Positions 42,110 through 57,121 of a stretch of 64,000 nt of DNA are shown in pieces (the stretch's first letter is position 1; each line of letters opens with the position of its first letter). The DNA is taken from the IMG/VR virus record IMGVR_UViG_3300035703_000082, positions 1-64,000 of that record, one strand, 5' to 3'. The position numbers and the translations under genes were made by a program. The notes beneath the pieces are model-generated. The model worked only from the letters and a program-made list of their open reading frames with translations. It had not been told where the DNA came from and searched no databases. The DNA comes from a virus.

Positions 42110-42937
42110 ATGCAAAAAATCTGCACGCAATGCGAAAAATCCCGCCCGCTCCAGCTCTTCCGCCGCTTTTCGGGCCGGAAAAAGATCCTGCGCACAATTT
42201 GCAACGTCTGCGACCCTCCGCGCACGCTCCGGCAGATGACGCCCGCTCAGCGGGTGCAGGAAGTCCACTATGGCCGCGCCAATCCGCTGGTTGTCTCCAG
42301 CATGGCTGCGCTTGAGCGGGCGCAGCGTTACGGGATCGAGGTCTCGGGGCGCAGCGCCCGGGTGCAGGCCGGTCTGCGCCGTCGTGCATGGGAAGCGGCC
42401 ATCCTGGGCCCGCTTGCGCGGGAGATAGCCTGGGCTGAAGCGCTAGATGCCCGCTACGGGCATCAGATGGCCCTCTGGGCCGATCCTGGCCCGCGCCAAG
42501 GGGGTGGCCTACACCCCGACCTTGCAGCGCCTTGGCGGGCCTTTACGCAAGCCTACGCGCATCTTCTGCGGCGCATGTTGGGCGACGCTCGTGCCGAGCT
42601 TGCCCGTGTCGCGCTCGGCACGAGCGAGCTGACTCCCCGTTTTCAGCGGGGGGCTGCGCAGCAGCCCACGGGTCTACGCCCAGGGCGCGGCCCGCGCCCA
42701 CGCAACCCCACGCCAGAGCAGGCAGACCCCTGCACTTACGCCCTGGCCCACGAGATCGGGCGTCTACGACGCCTGTACGCAGCCTGTCAGCCCATCCCGG
42801 GCAGGCGGGCACCCCGCAGCCCCTGGCTGCTGTCCTGGGGGGACACCAGTCCCCCGTCCTCAACGGGGGAGAAAACCTCCCCCAAATTCCCGGGCGCATC
42901 CGCGCCTGACTCAACCCCGAAAGGAAAGCAATCATGA
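42110..42937 (+). CDS. Zinc-finger early protein, 275 aa
   Basis: N-terminal CxxC pair: CTQCEKSRPLQLF, then TICNVCDPP about 25 residues later, as in small zinc-ribbon recruitment proteins. The remainder is Arg/Ala/Pro-rich and helical (LRRRAWEAAILGPLAREIA). The C-terminal segment (SSTGEKTSPKF) is encoded by hairpin copy 6. ATG 42110; upstream start codons only add unlikely low-complexity residues. May bind nucleic acid. Confidence 0.65.
   Translation: MQKICTQCEKSRPLQLFRRFSGRKKILRTICNVCDPPRTLRQMTPAQRVQEVHYGRANPLVVSSMAALERAQRYGIEVSGRSARVQAGLRRRAWEAAILGPLAREIAWAEALDARYGHQMALWADPGPRQGGGLHPDLAAPWRAFTQAYAHLLRRMLGDARAELARVALGTSELTPRFQRGAAQQPTGLRPGRGPRPRNPTPEQADPCTYALAHEIGRLRRLYAACQPIPGRRAPRSPWLLSWGDTSPPSSTGEKTSPKFPGASAPDSTPKGKQS
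42865..42883 (+). repeat. Hairpin repeat, copy 6 (inside a coding end)
   Basis: GGGGGAG AAAAC CTCCCCC, the most divergent loop. It lies in the last 20 codons of the 275-aa gene, 51 bases before the next ATG. Confidence 0.8.
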
Positions 42938-43539
42938 AGACCAAGACCAACTCCTCCCCCTCCGCCAAGCCCACCCGCGCCGACCTCCGTGCTGCGCTCA
43001 CCAGCGCCAGCGATTACACGTTGCGCAGTCTCAGCCGCGTGCACACCCTGTCGGCACTGGCTCCGCTGCTGCTGACGCACCCCTTGGTGCTGCGTACCTA
43101 CCGCACGCTCAGCAGCGCCCTGCCTGCCGGCCAGGGCCCGTGGGTCGACATCAGCCAGACGGCGGACAGTGTGCGGTTCGGTGCGACGCTGTACGAGCTG
43201 GACTCGTTCAAGGACGAGTGCTTGCTGCAGGCTCTGGAGCCCTTCGCGGATGCTGCCGACACCTGGGTGGCGGACTCCACCGACTGGACGTACAGCGCCC
43301 GACCCAACCGGGACTACAGCTTCGTGCAGCGTGTCGAGCTGGACCCGTACCTCTCCCCCATGCCTGCGCCTCTGCGCCGTGCGCTCTTGCGTGCTGGTGA
43401 CTTGGCCCCGCAGGCGTTCGACCTGCGCGTGGTGGTCTGCGCCTACGTGAAGACGGACAGCCCGCTGTGCCGCGTCGTGGTCAAGGGCATCGAGGAGAAG
43501 ATCGTCAGGGAGGAGATCAAGGAGATTGTGTGCGCCTGA
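42934..43539 (+). CDS. Hypothetical early protein, 201 aa
   Basis: ATG overlaps the upstream stop by 4 bases (ATGA). Mixed alpha/beta: SASDYTLRSLSRVHTLSALA, RPNRDYSFVQRVELDPYLSP. No catalytic motif recognised, no TM segment. Function unknown. Confidence 0.65.
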   Translation: MKTKTNSSPSAKPTRADLRAALTSASDYTLRSLSRVHTLSALAPLLLTHPLVLRTYRTLSSALPAGQGPWVDISQTADSVRFGATLYELDSFKDECLLQALEPFADAADTWVADSTDWTYSARPNRDYSFVQRVELDPYLSPMPAPLRRALLRAGDLAPQAFDLRVVVCAYVKTDSPLCRVVVKGIEEKIVREEIKEIVCA

Positions 43540-43555
43540 TCGGCGCGTAGCGTGT

Positions 43556-43574
43556 GGGGGAGAGGTTCTCCCCC
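43556..43574 (+). repeat. Intergenic hairpin repeat, copy 7
   Basis: GGGGGAGA GGT TCTCCCCC. It lies 17 bases after the 201-aa gene and 19 bases before the 24-aa gene start. Confidence 0.85.
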
Positions 43575-43592
43575 GTCTTTGAAGGAGTTGAC

Positions 43593-43667
43593 GTGACCAC
43601 CGACGACAAGCTGCTGCTCGCAGCGTACACGCTCATCGCAGCCCTGCTCATGCTGGGCATCATCTGA
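43593..43667 (+). CDS. Tiny membrane protein, 24 aa
   Basis: GTG start behind AAGGAG; sequence MTTDDKLLLAAYTLIAALLM ends in a single hydrophobic helix. Too short for families. May be a membrane peptide acting on the host; no data. Confidence 0.5.
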   Translation: MTTDDKLLLAAYTLIAALLMLGII

Positions 43668-43686
43668 AACTGAAAGGAGAGAAGCA

Positions 43687-43860
43687 ATGAACGGATACAT
43701 CGCGTTTTACAAGGGCCGACAGATCGAGGTCCGTGCCGATACTGCCTACGAGGCGCAGCAGAAGGCAGCCGCCCTGTTCAAGGCACGCAAGTCCTACGAG
43801 GTCACCGTAGTCCTGGCCGAGAAGGACGGCCAGCAAGCGGTGCACAACCCGTCGTTCTGA
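43687..43860 (+). CDS. Small early protein, 57 aa
   Basis: Starts behind GAAAGGAGAGAAGC, the strong leader that recurs in this block. Contains GYIAFYKGRQIEVRADTAYE, a small beta-alpha protein. Function unknown. Confidence 0.65.
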   Translation: MNGYIAFYKGRQIEVRADTAYEAQQKAAALFKARKSYEVTVVLAEKDGQQAVHNPSF

Positions 43861-43873
43861 AAGGAGAGAAGAC

Positions 43874-43975
43874 ATGCCATCCTGGCACCAACTCAAGGCA
43901 GGGCTTCCCAAGCTCAGCCACCCTACGCAGTGGTCGAGCTACAACCCGACCCGCCCGACGGGCCCGAAGGACTGA
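43874..43975 (+). CDS. Tiny protein, 33 aa
   Basis: Starts after AAGGAGAGAAGAC. Sequence MPSWHQLKAGLPKLSHPTQW then a Pro/Thr-rich end. Its stop is 1 base from the next start. Short, but its ribosome site is strong. Confidence 0.5.
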   Translation: MPSWHQLKAGLPKLSHPTQWSSYNPTRPTGPKD

Positions 43976-43976
43976 C

Positions 43977-44261
43977 ATGACCGCCAAGACCCAACCCATC
44001 ACCAGCATCGACTACGCAGGGCGTACCTGCGCCTTGCGCACCTCCGGCGGCACCGCCGTCGGCCAGGGCTTCGTTGCGCTGTCCCACAGGGGCGAGCGCT
44101 GGGTGATCACCGGGGGCCGTGCTCCCCACAAGGAGAGCAGCAGCGGCAAGGTGTGGGCCATGCCCTACCCGGGCGGCTACCCCGAGTCCGAGTTCTTCCC
44201 CGGGGTCTTCGACCTCGTGTGGGTGCCATCAACGCCCGCCAAGACCCAGGCCCACGCCTGA
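43977..44261 (+). CDS. Hypothetical early protein, 94 aa
   Basis: Compact beta protein: MTAKTQPITSIDYAGRTCAL, then SHRGERWVITGGRAPHKE. Ends before hairpin copy 8. No known family recognised. Confidence 0.6.
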   Translation: MTAKTQPITSIDYAGRTCALRTSGGTAVGQGFVALSHRGERWVITGGRAPHKESSSGKVWAMPYPGGYPESEFFPGVFDLVWVPSTPAKTQAHA

Positions 44262-44270
44262 TACCAACCC

Positions 44271-44289
44271 GGGGGAGAAGTTCTCCCCC
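44271..44289 (+). repeat. Intergenic hairpin repeat, copy 8
   Basis: GGGGGAGAA G TTCTCCCCC, perfect 9-base arms, preceded by GATACCAACCC as in copy 10. A second hairpin (44301-44319) follows. Confidence 0.85.
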
Positions 44290-44300
44290 ATCAACCCGTC

Positions 44301-44319
44301 GCCGCTGCGGCCCAGCGGC
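44301..44319 (+). other. Companion hairpin behind copy 8
   Basis: GCCGCTG, loop CGGCC, CAGCGGC. The equivalent hairpin at 44,871-44,889 differs by a G-C to C-G swap, so the pairing is retained. A third hairpin, GCCCTGC AAC GCAGGGC, follows at about 44,325-44,341. Confidence 0.6.
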
Positions 44320-44360
44320 AGCTTGCCCTGCAACGCAGGGCGTTCCAAGGAGAGAGCATC

Positions 44361-44771
44361 ATGTTCGACATCAACACCGCCATCAACACCGCCATCGCTG
44401 CCGCCGTGGCCGAGGCCACCAAGCCCCTGATCGAGCGCATCGCTACGCTGGAGGCGCAGCTCGCGCAGGCTACGCCTGCTCCGCAGGTGGGGGAGGCGGT
44501 GTCCGCCTACCTCGACAACGCCGAGTCCTTCTGGCACCGCATCGAGTGCTTCGTGCAGACGCGCACGGCGGACGCCGTGGACAAAGCGGTGGCCGATGCC
44601 ATCGACGCCCATCTGGAGGACGCCGGTCACCTCGACGAGGACGACATCGACACCAAGATCGAAGAGGCCATCGAGCGCCACGAGGAGAACAATACGCACG
44701 GCGACAACGACGACATCGAGGAGATCGTCCAGAGGCTGCTGAACAGCGCAAGCATCAGCATCACCGTCTGA
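44361..44771 (+). CDS. Acidic coiled-coil protein, 136 aa
   Basis: N-terminal helix INTAINTAIAAAVAEATKPL and a long acidic C-terminus (DEDDIDTKIEEAIERHEENN). Start has AAGGAGAGAGC. No enzyme motif; may be a protein-binding or DNA-mimic type early protein, but that is speculation. Confidence 0.65.
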   Translation: MFDINTAINTAIAAAVAEATKPLIERIATLEAQLAQATPAPQVGEAVSAYLDNAESFWHRIECFVQTRTADAVDKAVADAIDAHLEDAGHLDEDDIDTKIEEAIERHEENNTHGDNDDIEEIVQRLLNSASISITV

Positions 44772-44803
44772 CCTGCTCACGCAGGTCCAGGAACCCCTTC
44801 CCA

Positions 44804-44838
44804 CAGGTTCGGGAACCTGATATAGTCAAACCTTTGAC
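44804..44838 (+). promoter_or_regulatory. Palindrome and TATAGT region with operator-like repeat
   Basis: Perfect palindrome CAGGTTC GG GAACCTG (44804-44819), then TATAGT (44821-44826) and GTCAAA CC TTTGAC (44825-44838). TATAGT could be a -10 box, though no -35 is clear. The second repeat matches the sites at 41,714 and 47,316. It precedes hairpin copy 9 and the DUF932 gene. Confidence 0.45.
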
Positions 44839-44844
44839 AGACCC

Positions 44845-44863
44845 GGGGGAGACTTTCTCCCCC
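44845..44863 (+). repeat. Intergenic hairpin repeat, copy 9
   Basis: GGGGGAGA CTT TCTCCCCC. Followed by the covarying companion hairpin at 44,871-44,889 and AAGGAGAG before the DUF932 gene. Confidence 0.85.
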
Positions 44864-44870
44864 ACCCGTC

Positions 44871-44889
44871 GCCCCTGCGGTCCAGGGGC
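44871..44889 (+). other. Companion hairpin behind copy 9
   Basis: GCCCCTG, loop CGGTC, CAGGGGC. Same length and loop as at 44,301-44,319, but with compensating base changes in the stem. That supports an RNA structure in the leader of the DUF932 gene. Confidence 0.6.
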
Positions 44890-44921
44890 ACGCATGCTGC
44901 ACCGCAGCAAGGAGAGAAGCA

Positions 44922-45914
44922 ATGGCTCACGAAATCATGATCAAGAACGGTGTCGCTCAGTACGCCTCCACTCAACGCGAGTGGCACGGGCTGGGGGCAC
45001 TCATGCAGCCCAACCAGCCCATCGAAACTTGGGCGCGAGACGCAGGCATGGACTACAAGGTCCAGCGTGCCTACCCCCGCTACGCGGTGGAGCGCATCGA
45101 GCCCGACGCCGTGTACATCCCCGCGCACAAGCTGCGCCAAGTCGACGACAAGGTCGTGCTCTTCCGCTCGGACACCCACGCTCCCCTGGGCGTGGTCAGC
45201 GACGGCTACAAGGTCGTGCAGCCGAGGGAAGTCCTCGACTTCTTCCGCGAGTGGGCCGAGGCCGGCGGACTCACCATCGAGTCGGCAGGCGTGCTGTTCG
45301 GGGGCAAGCGCTACTTCGCAACTGCGAAGCTCGCAGACGGTGTCTGCGTGGACGGGTCCAAGGACAAGCTCGTGCCCTACGCGCTGCTGTCGACCTCTGC
45401 CGATGGCTCGCTGGCTACCGAGGGTCGCTGGACGACGGTGCGTGTGGTGTGCAACAACACCCTGCGCATGGCCCGGGAGGGGGCTACTGCCTTCCGCGTG
45501 ACGCATCGCTCGGAGTGGAAGCCCGAGAAGTTCCAGGCCGTCATCGAGCAGGCGCAAGCCGAGTTCGGCACGTTCATGGAGACGACGCGCAAGCTCGCCG
45601 CCATCCGGGTCGAGTCCAAGCTGGCCGAGGAGATGACCGTGGCGCTCTTCAAGAAGGGCACCGAGACCGATGCCGACAAGGTGCGCGAGTCCCGTGGCTT
45701 CGCCTCTGTCATGTCCCTGTTCGCCGGGGCCGGCAAGGGTGCGATGCTGGAGACATCGCGCGGTACGGCCTGGGGCTGGCTGAACGCCGTCACGGAGCAC
45801 GTTGACCACCATGTCCGCGCACGCTCGGACGAGAACCGCACCGCCTCGGCCCTCTGGGGCCCGGGCGACGCCCTGAAGCAGCAGGCTGTGGAGATTGCCC
45901 TGGCTGCGGCGTGA
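44922..45914 (+). CDS. DUF932/TIGR03299 phage-plasmid protein, 330 aa
   Basis: N-terminal WHGLGALMQPNQPIETWARD, then the family core GDGYKVVQPREVLDF-type segment and ESAGVLFGGKRYFATAKLAD, VRVVCNNTLRMA. This matches a widespread phage/plasmid family without a firm function. Full length. Start behind AAGGAGAGAAGC after hairpin copy 9. Confidence 0.85.
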   Translation: MAHEIMIKNGVAQYASTQREWHGLGALMQPNQPIETWARDAGMDYKVQRAYPRYAVERIEPDAVYIPAHKLRQVDDKVVLFRSDTHAPLGVVSDGYKVVQPREVLDFFREWAEAGGLTIESAGVLFGGKRYFATAKLADGVCVDGSKDKLVPYALLSTSADGSLATEGRWTTVRVVCNNTLRMAREGATAFRVTHRSEWKPEKFQAVIEQAQAEFGTFMETTRKLAAIRVESKLAEEMTVALFKKGTETDADKVRESRGFASVMSLFAGAGKGAMLETSRGTAWGWLNAVTEHVDHHVRARSDENRTASALWGPGDALKQQAVEIALAAA

Positions 45915-52513: not shown

Positions 52514-52763
52514 GGAAATGGCGGAGAAAGCGCAGGAACTGCCTTTCGACCGCAAAGCTTCGTTGTTGCTCATGACGCAAGCGTTGCTGCAGTGTTTCAT
52601 TGACCCAAAGTGGCATGCGGTGCTGGTATGGGTGGAAAACGAAGACACACTCAAGATGGCGTCAGCCAACGCCACCGCAGGAGAAAGTCTCGCGATGCTT
52701 GCAACCGCAATGGACGGCGTCGCAAGCGCTACGGAGCAGCCTGAACAAGGAGAGTTGCATTGA
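52503..52763 (+). CDS. Small hypothetical protein, 86 aa
   Basis: Start ATG 52503 overlaps the VRR-NUC end by 11 bases and its own stop overlaps the polymerase start. MDIKEMAEKAQELPFDRKAS, helical. Function unknown. Confidence 0.6.
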   Translation: MDIKEMAEKAQELPFDRKASLLLMTQALLQCFIDPKWHAVLVWVENEDTLKMASANATAGESLAMLATAMDGVASATEQPEQGELH

Positions 52764-54739
52764 GCAAGATGCCCTTCGACCGCACACTGGCGGTCGACTT
52801 CGAGACCTCCTGGGGACGCGAGGTCAAGCTCGGGTTCTCGTGCCAGACCAACGAGGAGTACCTGCGCGACCCGCGCTTCAAGGCGTGGGGGCTGTCGTGG
52901 AAGGAGGTCAGCACCGATGACAAGCCCGTCTGGGTCCGCCGCAACGGCATCCAAGCCTGGGCCGACCGCATCGACTGGAAGCGTACCGCCATCGTCTGCC
53001 AGAACACCCAGTTCGACGGCAGCATCCTGTCGTGGCACTACGGCGTGCAGCCGTGCTTCATGTTCGACACCCTCAGCATGGGCCGCGCCCTGCACGGCGT
53101 CGAGGTGGGCAACAGCCTGAAGGTGCTGGCCGAGCGCTACGGTCTGCCGCCCAAGGGGGACGGGCTCAGCCCGTCAGAGAACATCCTCGATGAGCTGCCG
53201 TTCGACGTTGAGCAGACGCTGGCCGACTACTGCAAGCACGACACGTGGCTGTGCGAGCAGATCTTCCTGCGCATGCTGCCCGGGTACCCGTCCAAGGAGC
53301 TGCGCCTGATCGACCTGACCCTGCGCATGTACACGCGCCCCTTGCTGGTGCTGGACGGGGCGATGCTGGAGCCAGCCATCGAGGAAGAGCGCCAAGCTCG
53401 CGAAGAGCTGCTCGCCCGCCTGGGCGTGGAGGAGGCCGCGCTGGCGTCCAACGACAAGTTCGCCGCTGTGCTGGAGGGCATGGGCATCGAGCCGCCGACG
53501 AAGGTCAGCAAGACCACCGGGCAGAAGACGTTCGCGTTCGCGAAGAACGACGCGCTGTTCCAGGCGATGATGAACTCCGACAACGAGGCCGTCGCCCTGC
53601 TCTGCGAGGCGCGGCTGAAGGTCAAGTCCACACTCCAGCGCACCCGTGCCCAGCGCTTCCTCGACATCTCCAGGCGCGGGGCGCTGCCCTTCCCGGTCAA
53701 CTACTACGGCGCGGCCACGGGCAGGTACACGGCCAGCAAGGGCAGTCAGATCAACCTGCAGAACCTCAAGCGCGGGAGCTTCCTGCGCAAGGCCATCACC
53801 GCCCCCGAGGGGCACGTGCTGGTAGTGGGAGACCTGTCCCAGATCGAGCCGCGCGTGCTGGCGTGGCTGGCGGACTACGATACGCTGCTGAACATCTTCA
53901 AGAGCGGTGGTGACCCCTACGCCACGTTCGGCTCGGGCATGTTCAACATCCCCGGTATGACTAAAGACTCTCATCCGGTGGAGAGGCAAAGTGCAAAGTC
54001 TGCTTTGCTTGGGTGCGGGTACCAACTGGGGTGGGCAAGTTTCGCAGCGCAGCTTCTGACCGGCTTCCTTGGAGCGCCTCCGAAACGCTACACAAAAGCA
54101 GAAGCACGGCAACTCGGCGTGACCGCGAAAGATGTGGACATCTTTCTCGGCGCGGAGCACAACATGAAGGCGATGGAGGCCATCCCGCACTCTTGCACGG
54201 CGCAGGAGCTGCTCATCCACTGCCTCGCTGCCCAGGCCATCATCACCCGGTATCGCGCCACGGCACAGCCCGTCGTCGCCCTGTGGAGCCTCCTCCAAGA
54301 CCTCATCAGCCACAGCCTGTTCAAGGGCAACGAGTACCGCCACAAGTGCCTGACCTTCCGCAAGGAAGAGATCGTCTTGCCAAACGGCATGAGCTTGCGG
54401 TATCCTGACCTCCAGCCCGAAGGCGACGGGCGGCGCATCCAGTGGACGTACGCGGACGGCAAGAAGCGGTCCAAGCTGTACGCCGGCAAGATCACCAACA
54501 ACGTCGTCCAGGGCACCGCGCGGATCGTGATGACCGACGGCATGCTGCGCATCGACAAACGCTACCCTGTGGCGGGCACGGTGCATGACGAAGCCATCGC
54601 AGTCGCGCCGGAGAGTGAAGCGGAAGAAGCCAAGAACTGGGTCTTGGCGCAGATGACTATTGAGCCTTCGTACTTGCCGGGGATTCCGCTATCGGCAAGC
54701 GGGGGCGTGCACAAACGCTATGGACTTGCAAAAGACTGA
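52760..54739 (+). CDS. Family A DNA polymerase with 3'-5' exonuclease, 659 aa
   Basis: Exonuclease motifs: D13 and E15 in LAVDFET, N82-D86 (NTQFD), Y157-D161 (YCKHD). Polymerase motifs: A at 358-365 (DLSQIEPR), B around 409-421 (RQSAKSALLGCGY) and C at 608-612 (VHDEA). All metal ligands are present. Typical phage replicative polymerase size. Region 53.96-54.15 kb has somewhat lower GC, near motif B. Confidence 0.95.
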   Translation: MSKMPFDRTLAVDFETSWGREVKLGFSCQTNEEYLRDPRFKAWGLSWKEVSTDDKPVWVRRNGIQAWADRIDWKRTAIVCQNTQFDGSILSWHYGVQPCFMFDTLSMGRALHGVEVGNSLKVLAERYGLPPKGDGLSPSENILDELPFDVEQTLADYCKHDTWLCEQIFLRMLPGYPSKELRLIDLTLRMYTRPLLVLDGAMLEPAIEEERQAREELLARLGVEEAALASNDKFAAVLEGMGIEPPTKVSKTTGQKTFAFAKNDALFQAMMNSDNEAVALLCEARLKVKSTLQRTRAQRFLDISRRGALPFPVNYYGAATGRYTASKGSQINLQNLKRGSFLRKAITAPEGHVLVVGDLSQIEPRVLAWLADYDTLLNIFKSGGDPYATFGSGMFNIPGMTKDSHPVERQSAKSALLGCGYQLGWASFAAQLLTGFLGAPPKRYTKAEARQLGVTAKDVDIFLGAEHNMKAMEAIPHSCTAQELLIHCLAAQAIITRYRATAQPVVALWSLLQDLISHSLFKGNEYRHKCLTFRKEEIVLPNGMSLRYPDLQPEGDGRRIQWTYADGKKRSKLYAGKITNNVVQGTARIVMTDGMLRIDKRYPVAGTVHDEAIAVAPESEAEEAKNWVLAQMTIEPSYLPGIPLSASGGVHKRYGLAKD

Positions 54740-55004
54740 CCTCAACGACTACGCCATGCCCTTGATGAACATCGAGCGCATGGCAAAACAAATTCACGAC
54801 TTGTGCCTCGAGAACAAGTTCGATGAAGCTCGGCAGCAGGCGCAACTGCTCTGCGTCGAGGGGCGCGTGTTGCAACACGTTCTTACAATCATGCACGAAC
54901 AGGAGAGTGAACGCTATGGAAATTCCCAAGCAAATCCAAGTCGGCAAGCGGGTGTACTCGATCAACAAGCGCCGCAAGCCGCGTCGACGCCTCACGGTTG
55001 GTGA
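54720..55004 (+). CDS. Small helical protein, 94 aa (uncertain end)
   Basis: Starts ATG 54720, inside the polymerase end, and runs 89 bases into the zincin gene in another frame. The first 65 residues are convincing (MNIERMAKQIHDLCLENKFD). The last 25 or so may be shadow coding. Function unknown. Confidence 0.45.
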   Translation: MDLQKTDLNDYAMPLMNIERMAKQIHDLCLENKFDEARQQAQLLCVEGRVLQHVLTIMHEQESERYGNSQANPSRQAGVLDQQAPQAASTPHGW

Positions 55005-55215
55005 AGTCAACTACGGCCAGCAGTACATCGATGTTGTCACGCACAGCAACTACACGGGCCGCGCGTTCAAGTCGGAGGAGCTGTCCGACACTTTTTGGCA
55101 CGAGCTGACGCACGCCATCCTCTACGAGATGAAGAGCCCGTTGCACAACGACGAGGCGTTCGTCACCAAGTTCTCCGGCCTACTCAACAAAGCCGTGCTC
55201 TCGGCTAAATTCTGA
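54916..55215 (+). CDS. Small zincin-type metallopeptidase-like protein, 99 aa
   Basis: ATG 54916 behind AGGAGAG. FWHELTHAILYEM contains HELTH, a HExxH zinc site. Upstream part: KQIQVGKRVYSINKRRKPRR, beta-rich. Small phage zincins of this type are known beside replication genes; substrate unknown. Confidence 0.7.
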   Translation: MEIPKQIQVGKRVYSINKRRKPRRRLTVGEVNYGQQYIDVVTHSNYTGRAFKSEELSDTFWHELTHAILYEMKSPLHNDEAFVTKFSGLLNKAVLSAKF

Positions 55216-56852
55216 TGTCCACACCCATCACATGGTCCCACAGCGGGCTGAAGGACTTCGAGGGTTGCGCTCGGCGCTACCACGAGGTCAAGGTGCTGAA
55301 GAAGTTCCCCCACAAGGACACGAAGCACACGCTCTACGGCAAGGAAGTGCACAAGGCCATCGAGCTGTACGGCAGGGACGGCGTGCCCATGCCGCCGGCA
55401 CTGGCGGACTTCAAGCCGGCGGTTGATGCGATCCTCGCCAAGCCTGGACGCAAGCTGTTTGAGCATGAGATGGGCGTGACCGCAGACCTGCGGCCCTGCG
55501 CGTTCGACGCGCCTGACCGCTGGGTACGGGGCATCGCGGACCTGCTGATCATCAACGACGACAATCTGACCGCGCGTGTGGTGGACTGGAAAGGGCTGGC
55601 ACTGGATACGCCAATACCCACGCCGCAAGGGTGGGCGACGATGGGTAGCCTACAGGTGGGTGACCTTGTGTTTGATGCGCAGGGTAAGCCGACACGCGTT
55701 GTCGGCAAATCGCAAGTTAAGCACATCCCTTGCTACAAGATAACTTTCAGTGACACGACGACGGTCGTCTGCGACGAAGAGCATTTATGGAAGCTTGCAA
55801 GCGGGAGGGTCGTTGGCGTACGCGACTTGACGGGAAAGCGCAACAAAAAACAGCGCGTTAAGCCGCCGCGAATCGCCGTTGCTGCGCCGCTTGCGCTTCC
55901 TGACATTCCGCTGCCTATAGACCCGTACGTACTAGGTCTTTGGCTTGCTGATGGCAAACGGGCATCAAGCGAGATAAGCAAACCTGATCTGTTCGTGTGG
56001 GAGGAAGTGCAGCGTAGAGGGTATGCAGTTAACATGGAAACTGGTGGGAGCAAGAGCTGCCCCACCCGCACAGTAAAAGGTCTGCGTACGCAGCTTGTAA
56101 GCTGCGGCCTTCTAGGGGCGAATAAACGCATACCCCCGGCATACCTGCGTGCAGGATATTCGCAGCGCCTCGATCTTCTGCGGGGGCTTATGGACGGCGA
56201 CGGCAACGCGAATCCAACAAGAAAGCAGGCCGTGTACACGACAACATCAAAAGAACTGAGCAATGATGTCTGTGAGCTGCTGTCCTCACTGGGGCAGCGC
56301 CCGCTTCAAAGCACTGTTACGGCTAGAGGATTCAATACTACGACAACCGCGTATCCGGTTTCGTTCCGTCCTATCGGGATTAACCCGTTCCTGCTTCCGC
56401 GCAAAGCGGAACGCATCGACGCACGGTGGGGCGCAGGAGACAGTGCAACTAGAATAGTCGTGTCTGTTGAGCAGGTTCCGACTGTACCCACGCAGTGCAT
56501 AGCCGTTGAGTCAGAAGACCATACGTTTCTGTGCACAGAGCGTATGGTGCCGACGCACAACACCGGCAACGACAAGTACCCGGACAGAGATCAGCTCGTG
56601 CTGATGTCGCTGATGGTCTTCACGCACTTCCCTCATATCCGGCGCGTCTCCTCGGCCCTGATGTTCGTCGTCAAGGGTAGCATGTTCAAGCACCGCATGG
56701 AGCGAGACGAGGCGGAAGAAACGTGGTGGCGGTACCGGGAGCGCGTGGCGAAGCTGGAGGCCGCGCATGCCAACAACGTGTGGAATCCTTCGCAGAGCCC
56801 GCTGTGCGGCTGGTGCCCCGTGAAGAGCTGTGTGTTTCATCCTGACCACTAG
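55215..56852 (+). CDS. Cas4/RecB-like PD-(D/E)XK nuclease interrupted by an intein, 545 aa precursor
   Basis: Precursor minus intein is about 222 residues. Extein motifs: GCARRY (Cys18), GKEVHKAIELY, GIADLLI (motif with Asp), VVDWK | TG (DxK motif), and CGWCPVKSC near the end. Four Cys could hold an iron-sulphur cluster as in Cas4/AddB. The intein (residues 127-449) sits exactly between Lys126 and Thr450 of the DWKTG motif, so the nuclease needs splicing to work. Likely a 5'-3' exonuclease or recombination partner. Confidence 0.85.
   Translation: MSTPITWSHSGLKDFEGCARRYHEVKVLKKFPHKDTKHTLYGKEVHKAIELYGRDGVPMPPALADFKPAVDAILAKPGRKLFEHEMGVTADLRPCAFDAPDRWVRGIADLLIINDDNLTARVVDWKGLALDTPIPTPQGWATMGSLQVGDLVFDAQGKPTRVVGKSQVKHIPCYKITFSDTTTVVCDEEHLWKLASGRVVGVRDLTGKRNKKQRVKPPRIAVAAPLALPDIPLPIDPYVLGLWLADGKRASSEISKPDLFVWEEVQRRGYAVNMETGGSKSCPTRTVKGLRTQLVSCGLLGANKRIPPAYLRAGYSQRLDLLRGLMDGDGNANPTRKQAVYTTTSKELSNDVCELLSSLGQRPLQSTVTARGFNTTTTAYPVSFRPIGINPFLLPRKAERIDARWGAGDSATRIVVSVEQVPTVPTQCIAVESEDHTFLCTERMVPTHNTGNDKYPDRDQLVLMSLMVFTHFPHIRRVSSALMFVVKGSMFKHRMERDEAEETWWRYRERVAKLEAAHANNVWNPSQSPLCGWCPVKSCVFHPDH
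55593..56561 (+). mobile_element. Class 3-type intein with LAGLIDADG homing endonuclease, 323 aa
   Basis: Begins GLALDTPIPTPQGW and ends VPTHN before extein Thr. No N-terminal nucleophile (Gly1), but the class 3 triad is visible: Trp192 in EEHLW (block B), Cys428 in TQCIAV (block F) and Thr447 in PTHN (block G). Homing motifs: YVLGLWLADG (237-246) and RGLMDGDG (about 323-330). Numbers refer to the precursor. Lower GC than the flanks at about 55,700-56,500, in keeping with transfer. Confidence 0.85.
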
Positions 56853-56860
56853 GAGGCTGT

Positions 56861-57121
56861 ATGCCGTACAAGGACATGAACGACCGGGACACGTATCCCG
56901 CCTACGACCAGACGGAGAAAGCCAAGAAAGCGCGGGCGCAGCGCAACAAGGCACGACGCATGCTGATGCGCGAAGGGGCGGTTACCAAGGGGGACGGCAA
57001 AGATGTGCACCACAAAACGCCGCTGAGCAAGGGCGGCAAGACGACGCCGGGGAACTTGGCCGTCGTGCCGGCCAGCAAGAACCGCACGTTCAAGCGAAAC
57101 AAAGATCACTCGATGAAGTGA
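56861..57121 (+). CDS. HNH endonuclease-like protein, 86 aa
   Basis: DVHHKTPLSKGGKTTPGNLA then VVPASKNR forms an HNH finger (His-His, Asn, Asn). Basic N-terminus (KKARAQRNKARRMLMREGA). Small stand-alone HNH of phages; may assist packaging or homing. Confidence 0.8.
   Translation: MPYKDMNDRDTYPAYDQTEKAKKARAQRNKARRMLMREGAVTKGDGKDVHHKTPLSKGGKTTPGNLAVVPASKNRTFKRNKDHSMK

Follow-up and report, generated by a model that had tools for sequence, protein, structure and literature searches.

The window analysed here (positions 1–64000 of a 66,647-base virus record) carries, within the gene for a Cas4-type nuclease, what is very probably a selfish class 3 intein, competent both for splicing and for homing. 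The gene is a single uninterrupted reading frame of 545 aa at 55215–56852 on the plus strand, as are all of its parts described below, and encodes a PD-(D/E)xK (Cas4/RecB-like) nuclease, as indicated by matches to Pfam PDDEXK_1 (residues 6–127 of the precursor, E 2e-9) and to PHROG exonuclease families 69 and 1218. A first-pass annotation made from the sequence alone had proposed a class 3 intein with a LAGLIDADG nuclease, lodged between Lys and Thr of the DWK-TG stretch of a Cas4/RecB-like protein, and each of these proposals held up against the profile, alignment, empty-allele and fold evidence given below. The span that it assigned to the intein, 55215–56852, marks a real gene, but these are the coordinates of the whole gene; the intein proper comprises 323 aa (Gly127–Asn449) at 55593–56561.

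The boundaries of the intein follow from comparison with intein-free relatives, which, among the matches listed, reach 89% protein identity and have their two halves joined precisely where the intein sits in the window. The closest of these empty alleles among the matches listed, L005, is 89% identical to the window in each of the two exteins (N-extein, residues 1–126, 55215–55592; C-extein, residues 450–545, 56562–56849). The DNA of the window aligns with that of L005 up to 55592 and then again from 56559, and at the site L005 reads unbroken, GACTGGAAA/ACGGGT, encoding DWK-TG with nothing between (the slash marks the insertion point here and below). Removal of the intein from the window gives GACTGGAAA/ACCGGC, and the predicted empty target site of the intein endonuclease is GTGGACTGGAAA/ACCGGCAACGAC. 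In all 24 empty relatives examined, DWK is directly followed by TG or SG. The insertion therefore lies immediately 3′ of the DWK of the D/ExK active-site motif (55584–55592) and splits its catalytic Lys from the next Thr, with junctions VVDWK/GLALDT...MVPTHN/TGNDK. No co-conversion tract could be marked around the insertion, since identity to three empty relatives (L005, L006 and L007) shows no clear step there. DNA identity to the same three relatives falls to about 60–70% at about 54790–54990, some 600–800 bases upstream of the insertion and just past the polymerase gene.

The nuclease gene is part of a replication module, as annotated by Pfam and PHROG matches of its neighbours, comprising a family A DNA polymerase (52760–54739), a SprT-like protein, the nuclease, a small HNH protein, an SNF2-type helicase and a DUF927 primase-like protein. 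The HNH open reading frame (56861–57121) lies immediately downstream of the nuclease gene, and we considered it as a piece of the intein element; this was rejected, because the alignment of flanking DNA with the intein-free L005 extends across the frame too, placing it in the phage backbone. No further inteins were found in the window, where a class 3 profile matches the 55215–56852 frame alone.

The insert is a class 3 intein by all sequence criteria that we checked. It begins with Gly127 and thus lacks an N-terminal Cys, Ser or Thr nucleophile, and in a profile alignment (A1) its Trp192, Cys428 and Thr447 occupy the columns of Trp B:12, Cys F:4 and Thr G:5 that define the class (PMC3196547, PMC5050341). 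Block B (His190-Leu-Trp192, 55782–55790) supplies His B:10 as well as the Trp; Cys428, at position 4 of block F (56496–56498), is the predicted initiating nucleophile and lines up with its block F counterpart in 6bs8, a class 3 DnaB intein of solved structure; and block G ends in Thr447, His448 and Asn449 (56553–56561), followed by Thr450 at the +1 position. Both splicing ends align with 6bs8 in a phmmer search (E 6e-23), the top solved relatives by sequence are the class 3 DnaB inteins 6bs8, 6rix and 6riy, and a Foldseek search with the intein in the predicted precursor returned 6bs8, 6riy, 6rix and PI-SceI, together with a fold match to I-DmoI.

Lone Trp, Cys and Thr residues can arise by chance, and in an intein of class 1 or 2 such a set could be a coincidence. 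The first-pass annotation had stated that class 3 would be wrong if the F-block Cys or B-block Trp aligned elsewhere and an N-terminal nucleophile were used, and this check did not refute the assignment: among 42 distinct inteins found after the D/ExK motif, all 42 show Trp, Cys and Thr in the class 3 columns, with blocks B (invariant also in A1), F and G as in the window, a conservation that is partly due to selection because the search profile was made from class 3 inteins. Of these inteins 41 begin with Gly and one with Ser, Thr stands at +1 in 40, and the nearest solved inteins are of class 3. Chance as the source of the intein signature is excluded, and a class 1 or 2 assignment, vanishingly unlikely, was rejected on the class 3 columns.

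Standard profiles can mislead here. The Pfam Intein_splicing model (PF14890) is blind to this class 3 intein, giving zero matches across the window, 55593–56561 included, and the top PHROGs names for the 545-aa protein are 'terminase large subunit', through an intein held in common. The reading of the intein as part of a terminase, suggested by these names, was rejected, the likeness being limited to the intein; the terminase gene in the window is uninterrupted. Annotators thus face a risk of misannotation, with PF14890 missing the intein and the best PHROGs names pointing to a terminase.

Between its splicing blocks, the intein carries a LAGLIDADG endonuclease, with a Pfam LAGLIDADG_3 match at residues 318–360 of the precursor (E 6e-7). 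Its two motifs, LGLWLADG (55932–55955) and LMDGDG (56187–56204), keep both catalytic acids, D246 and D329, which are present in 40 and 39, respectively, of the 42 nuclease-site inteins. A decayed insert that no longer splices and leaves the nuclease a pseudogene has a precedent in the non-splicing class 3 intein Arsp-FB24 Arth_1007 (PMC3196547); in that intein, however, Cys F:4 and His B:10 are missing, while the window intein has all splicing residues and sits between intact, in-frame exteins with 89% identity to an empty allele, so that we regard such decay as extremely unlikely.

For the splicing-competent intein that we favour, we propose the following course. After translation, Cys428, activated by His190 and Thr447 and with Trp192 packing the site, would attack the Lys126–Gly127 bond; the N-extein would then be transferred from Cys428 to Thr450, and cyclisation of Asn449 would leave a seamless DWK-TG Cas4-like nuclease. 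The equivalent Cys-His-Thr residues of MchDnaB1 form a protease-like triad (PMC7664689). In a co-infection, the LAGLIDADG endonuclease would cut intein-free copies at the same codon, and repair templated by the intein-bearing copy would allow the intein to spread.

The host protein is a Cas4-type PD-(D/E)xK nuclease with four invariant, putative Fe-S cysteines. In an alignment of 23 empty alleles, H46, D109, D124-K126 and Q137 are invariant, as are C18, C208, C211 and C216 (L005 numbering), residues that could hold a putative 4Fe-4S cluster; H-D-DxK-Q motifs together with four cysteines are the layout of Cas4-type Fe-S nucleases. In the intein-bearing gene, C18, H46, D109, D124 and K126 fall in the N-extein, and the DQL motif and C531, C534 and C539 (the cysteines invariant in alignment A4) in the C-extein. 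For the intein-free allele, the PDDEXK_1 match spans the whole length (E 1e-15), PHROG exonucleases also match, and a predicted model (mean pLDDT 79) has the Argonaute-associated Cas4 ACE1, SSO0001, RecE, AdnAB and MGME1 as its best Foldseek matches, indicating a Cas4/RecB-type fold. A PDB sequence search with the profile of the empty allele gave no match.

In the precursor, the conserved Gln and three of the four cysteines lie on the far side of the intein from K126. Since the Lys is split from the Thr and three putative Fe-S cysteines lie in the C-terminal half, the nuclease most likely has no activity before splicing, which makes the first-pass proposal of an exonuclease dead until then a reasonable one. 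The precursor model is no proof of active-site disruption, because its pLDDT is below 50 at both junctions (residues 124–127 and 450–454).

Three kinds of evidence from sequence comparisons indicate that the intein was gained horizontally and recently: its base composition, the discordant histories of intein and extein, and the presence, absence and decay of the intein among relatives. GC3 is 0.58 in the intein vs 0.85–0.87 in the exteins, the polymerase and the helicase. The best-matching intein among the matches listed, L001, is 69% identical, with an extein only 40.6% identical to that of the window, and no closer intein donor was found among those matches. In the careful intein tree, the grouping of the window with L001 and L002 has moderate support (84/80), and holding the window with L147, an extein-like order, was not rejected (p 0.17); the extein tree rejects the grouping of the window with L001 and L002 (p 1.8e-5), and the window extein lies among empty alleles (89% to L005).

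The same observations bear on whether splicing might be conditional, for instance redox-dependent through Cys428, and serve as a post-translational switch that times the nuclease. Such a switch would suit a block F Cys nucleophile and an insertion that divides the active site of a putative Fe-S enzyme, and splicing of class 3 DnaB inteins in mycobacteria is described as stress-responsive (PMC6195587). Nevertheless, the intein is absent from at least 23 close relatives in the alignment, and its base composition is that of a recent arrival, which suits a selfish element better than a kept regulator; we consider such a switch very unlikely.

For the selfish element, relatives at the same site supply further stages of a homing cycle. 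The inteins of L189 (reading frame starting at 2418) and L185 (starting at 2496) have shrunk to 239 and 264 aa and lost their endonuclease acids, with splicing residues intact, and represent the decay stage; those of L150 and L181 have lost one LAGLIDADG acid. Both acids kept in the window, with loss and shrinkage in some relatives, form the pattern expected of a homing cycle. Among cultured mycobacteriophages, some carry such an intein and others lack it: 273 mycobacteriophage records match the Zeeculate gene, four of them over 80% or more of its length, and the majority of the other sampled matches are confined to two flank pieces at 92–96% identity. As such phages of M. smegmatis are in culture, homing is directly testable. 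Rollin and KPP25 were rejected as a close plus/minus pair, their exteins being just 21% identical. In two mycobacteriophage records, PP405135 (Squee, 43561–44975) and MK359300 (AFIS, 42508–43907), an annotated HNH endonuclease gene lies inside the Cas4 exonuclease match, possibly another kind of homing element within that gene.

When viral contigs, bacterial genomes and phage records were searched, with counts of relatives as lower bounds, at least 217 distinct inteins of the window's type emerged, at least 42 of them after the D/ExK motif. Carriers at this motif include Pseudomonas, Streptomyces and Mycobacterium phages (among them Rollin, Frankenweenie, Zeeculate and Traft412), metagenomic viruses and actinobacterial genomes, with contigs from a Nocardioides MAG, a Frankiaceae MAG and Nonomuraea fuscirosea. 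The first intein residue tracks the site, with the near-uniform Gly at D/ExK set against Ala in 117 of 143 inteins at GK-type (other Lys-ending) sites, a link that may reflect lineage or chemistry.

The intein tree implies two site changes for the nuclease-site inteins. The window falls in a 34-member clade, and the intein of the cluster C1 mycobacteriophage Cane17 pairs with L143, an intein of another protein, with support of 100, in agreement with the pairing of RecB and TerL1-d inteins reported by Kelley et al. 2016 (PMC5050341). Two separate invasions of the D/ExK codon are thus likely on tree placement, where the C1 RecB inteins and the window lineage stand apart, although a single clade of the two was not rejected (p 0.169). 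A fuller scenario appears improbable to us, in which the 34-member lineage and that of the C1 mycobacteriophages separately invaded the same codon of Cas4-like phage nucleases, both from inteins whose usual place is a GK/(S or T) site, and in which splicing through the Cys nucleophile would switch an Fe-S nuclease on in a redox- or time-dependent way.

Inteins at the D/ExK site of Cas4/RecB-like nucleases are already known, and the window is a further example with a clear empty-site comparison. The first-pass annotation had taken inteins in Cas4/RecB-type phage nucleases to be unusual, which is wrong, since Kelley et al. 2016 (PMC5050341) reported 40 cluster C1 mycobacteriophage RecB/Cas4-like nucleases with inteins in the PD-(D/E)xK motif, the Cane17 intein follows ELK at the same codon position, and Zeeculate, Traft412 and Frankenweenie carry inteins at the same codon. 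Class 3 inteins recur at the D/ExK codon of Cas4-like nucleases, the mycobacteriophage pattern now being widened to many phage groups, and with its foreign GC3 and very closely related empty alleles the window offers a clean case that helps to date intein gain.

Compared with known systems, the C1 mycobacteriophage RecB/Cas4-like inteins, such as that of Cane17 gp205 (NC_054716), resemble the window intein in being of class 3, in carrying a LAGLIDADG endonuclease and in following the Lys of D/ExK, but the Cane17 intein is 36–39% identical, has an ELK/S rather than a DWK/G junction and lies outside the 34-member clade. Those of Zeeculate and Traft412 (Mycobacterium), Frankenweenie (Streptomyces) and Rollin (Pseudomonas) occupy the same codon (DxK/G...THN/T) in the same clade and are 43–50% identical, whereas the exteins have diverged to about 21–25% identity. 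The mycobacterial DnaB inteins 6bs8, 6rix and 6riy share the Trp-Cys-Thr set and the Hint fold, but are mini-inteins of 139–146 aa without an endonuclease, set in the DnaB helicase. The host protein, finally, is matched in Foldseek searches by the Cas4-family nucleases SSO0001, ACE1 and type I-C Cas4, with which it shares one N-terminal and three C-terminal cysteines and the H-D-DxK-Q motifs, although the likeness to these proteins is one of moderate fold scores (TM about 0.3–0.5) rather than of sequence-level matches in the PDB.
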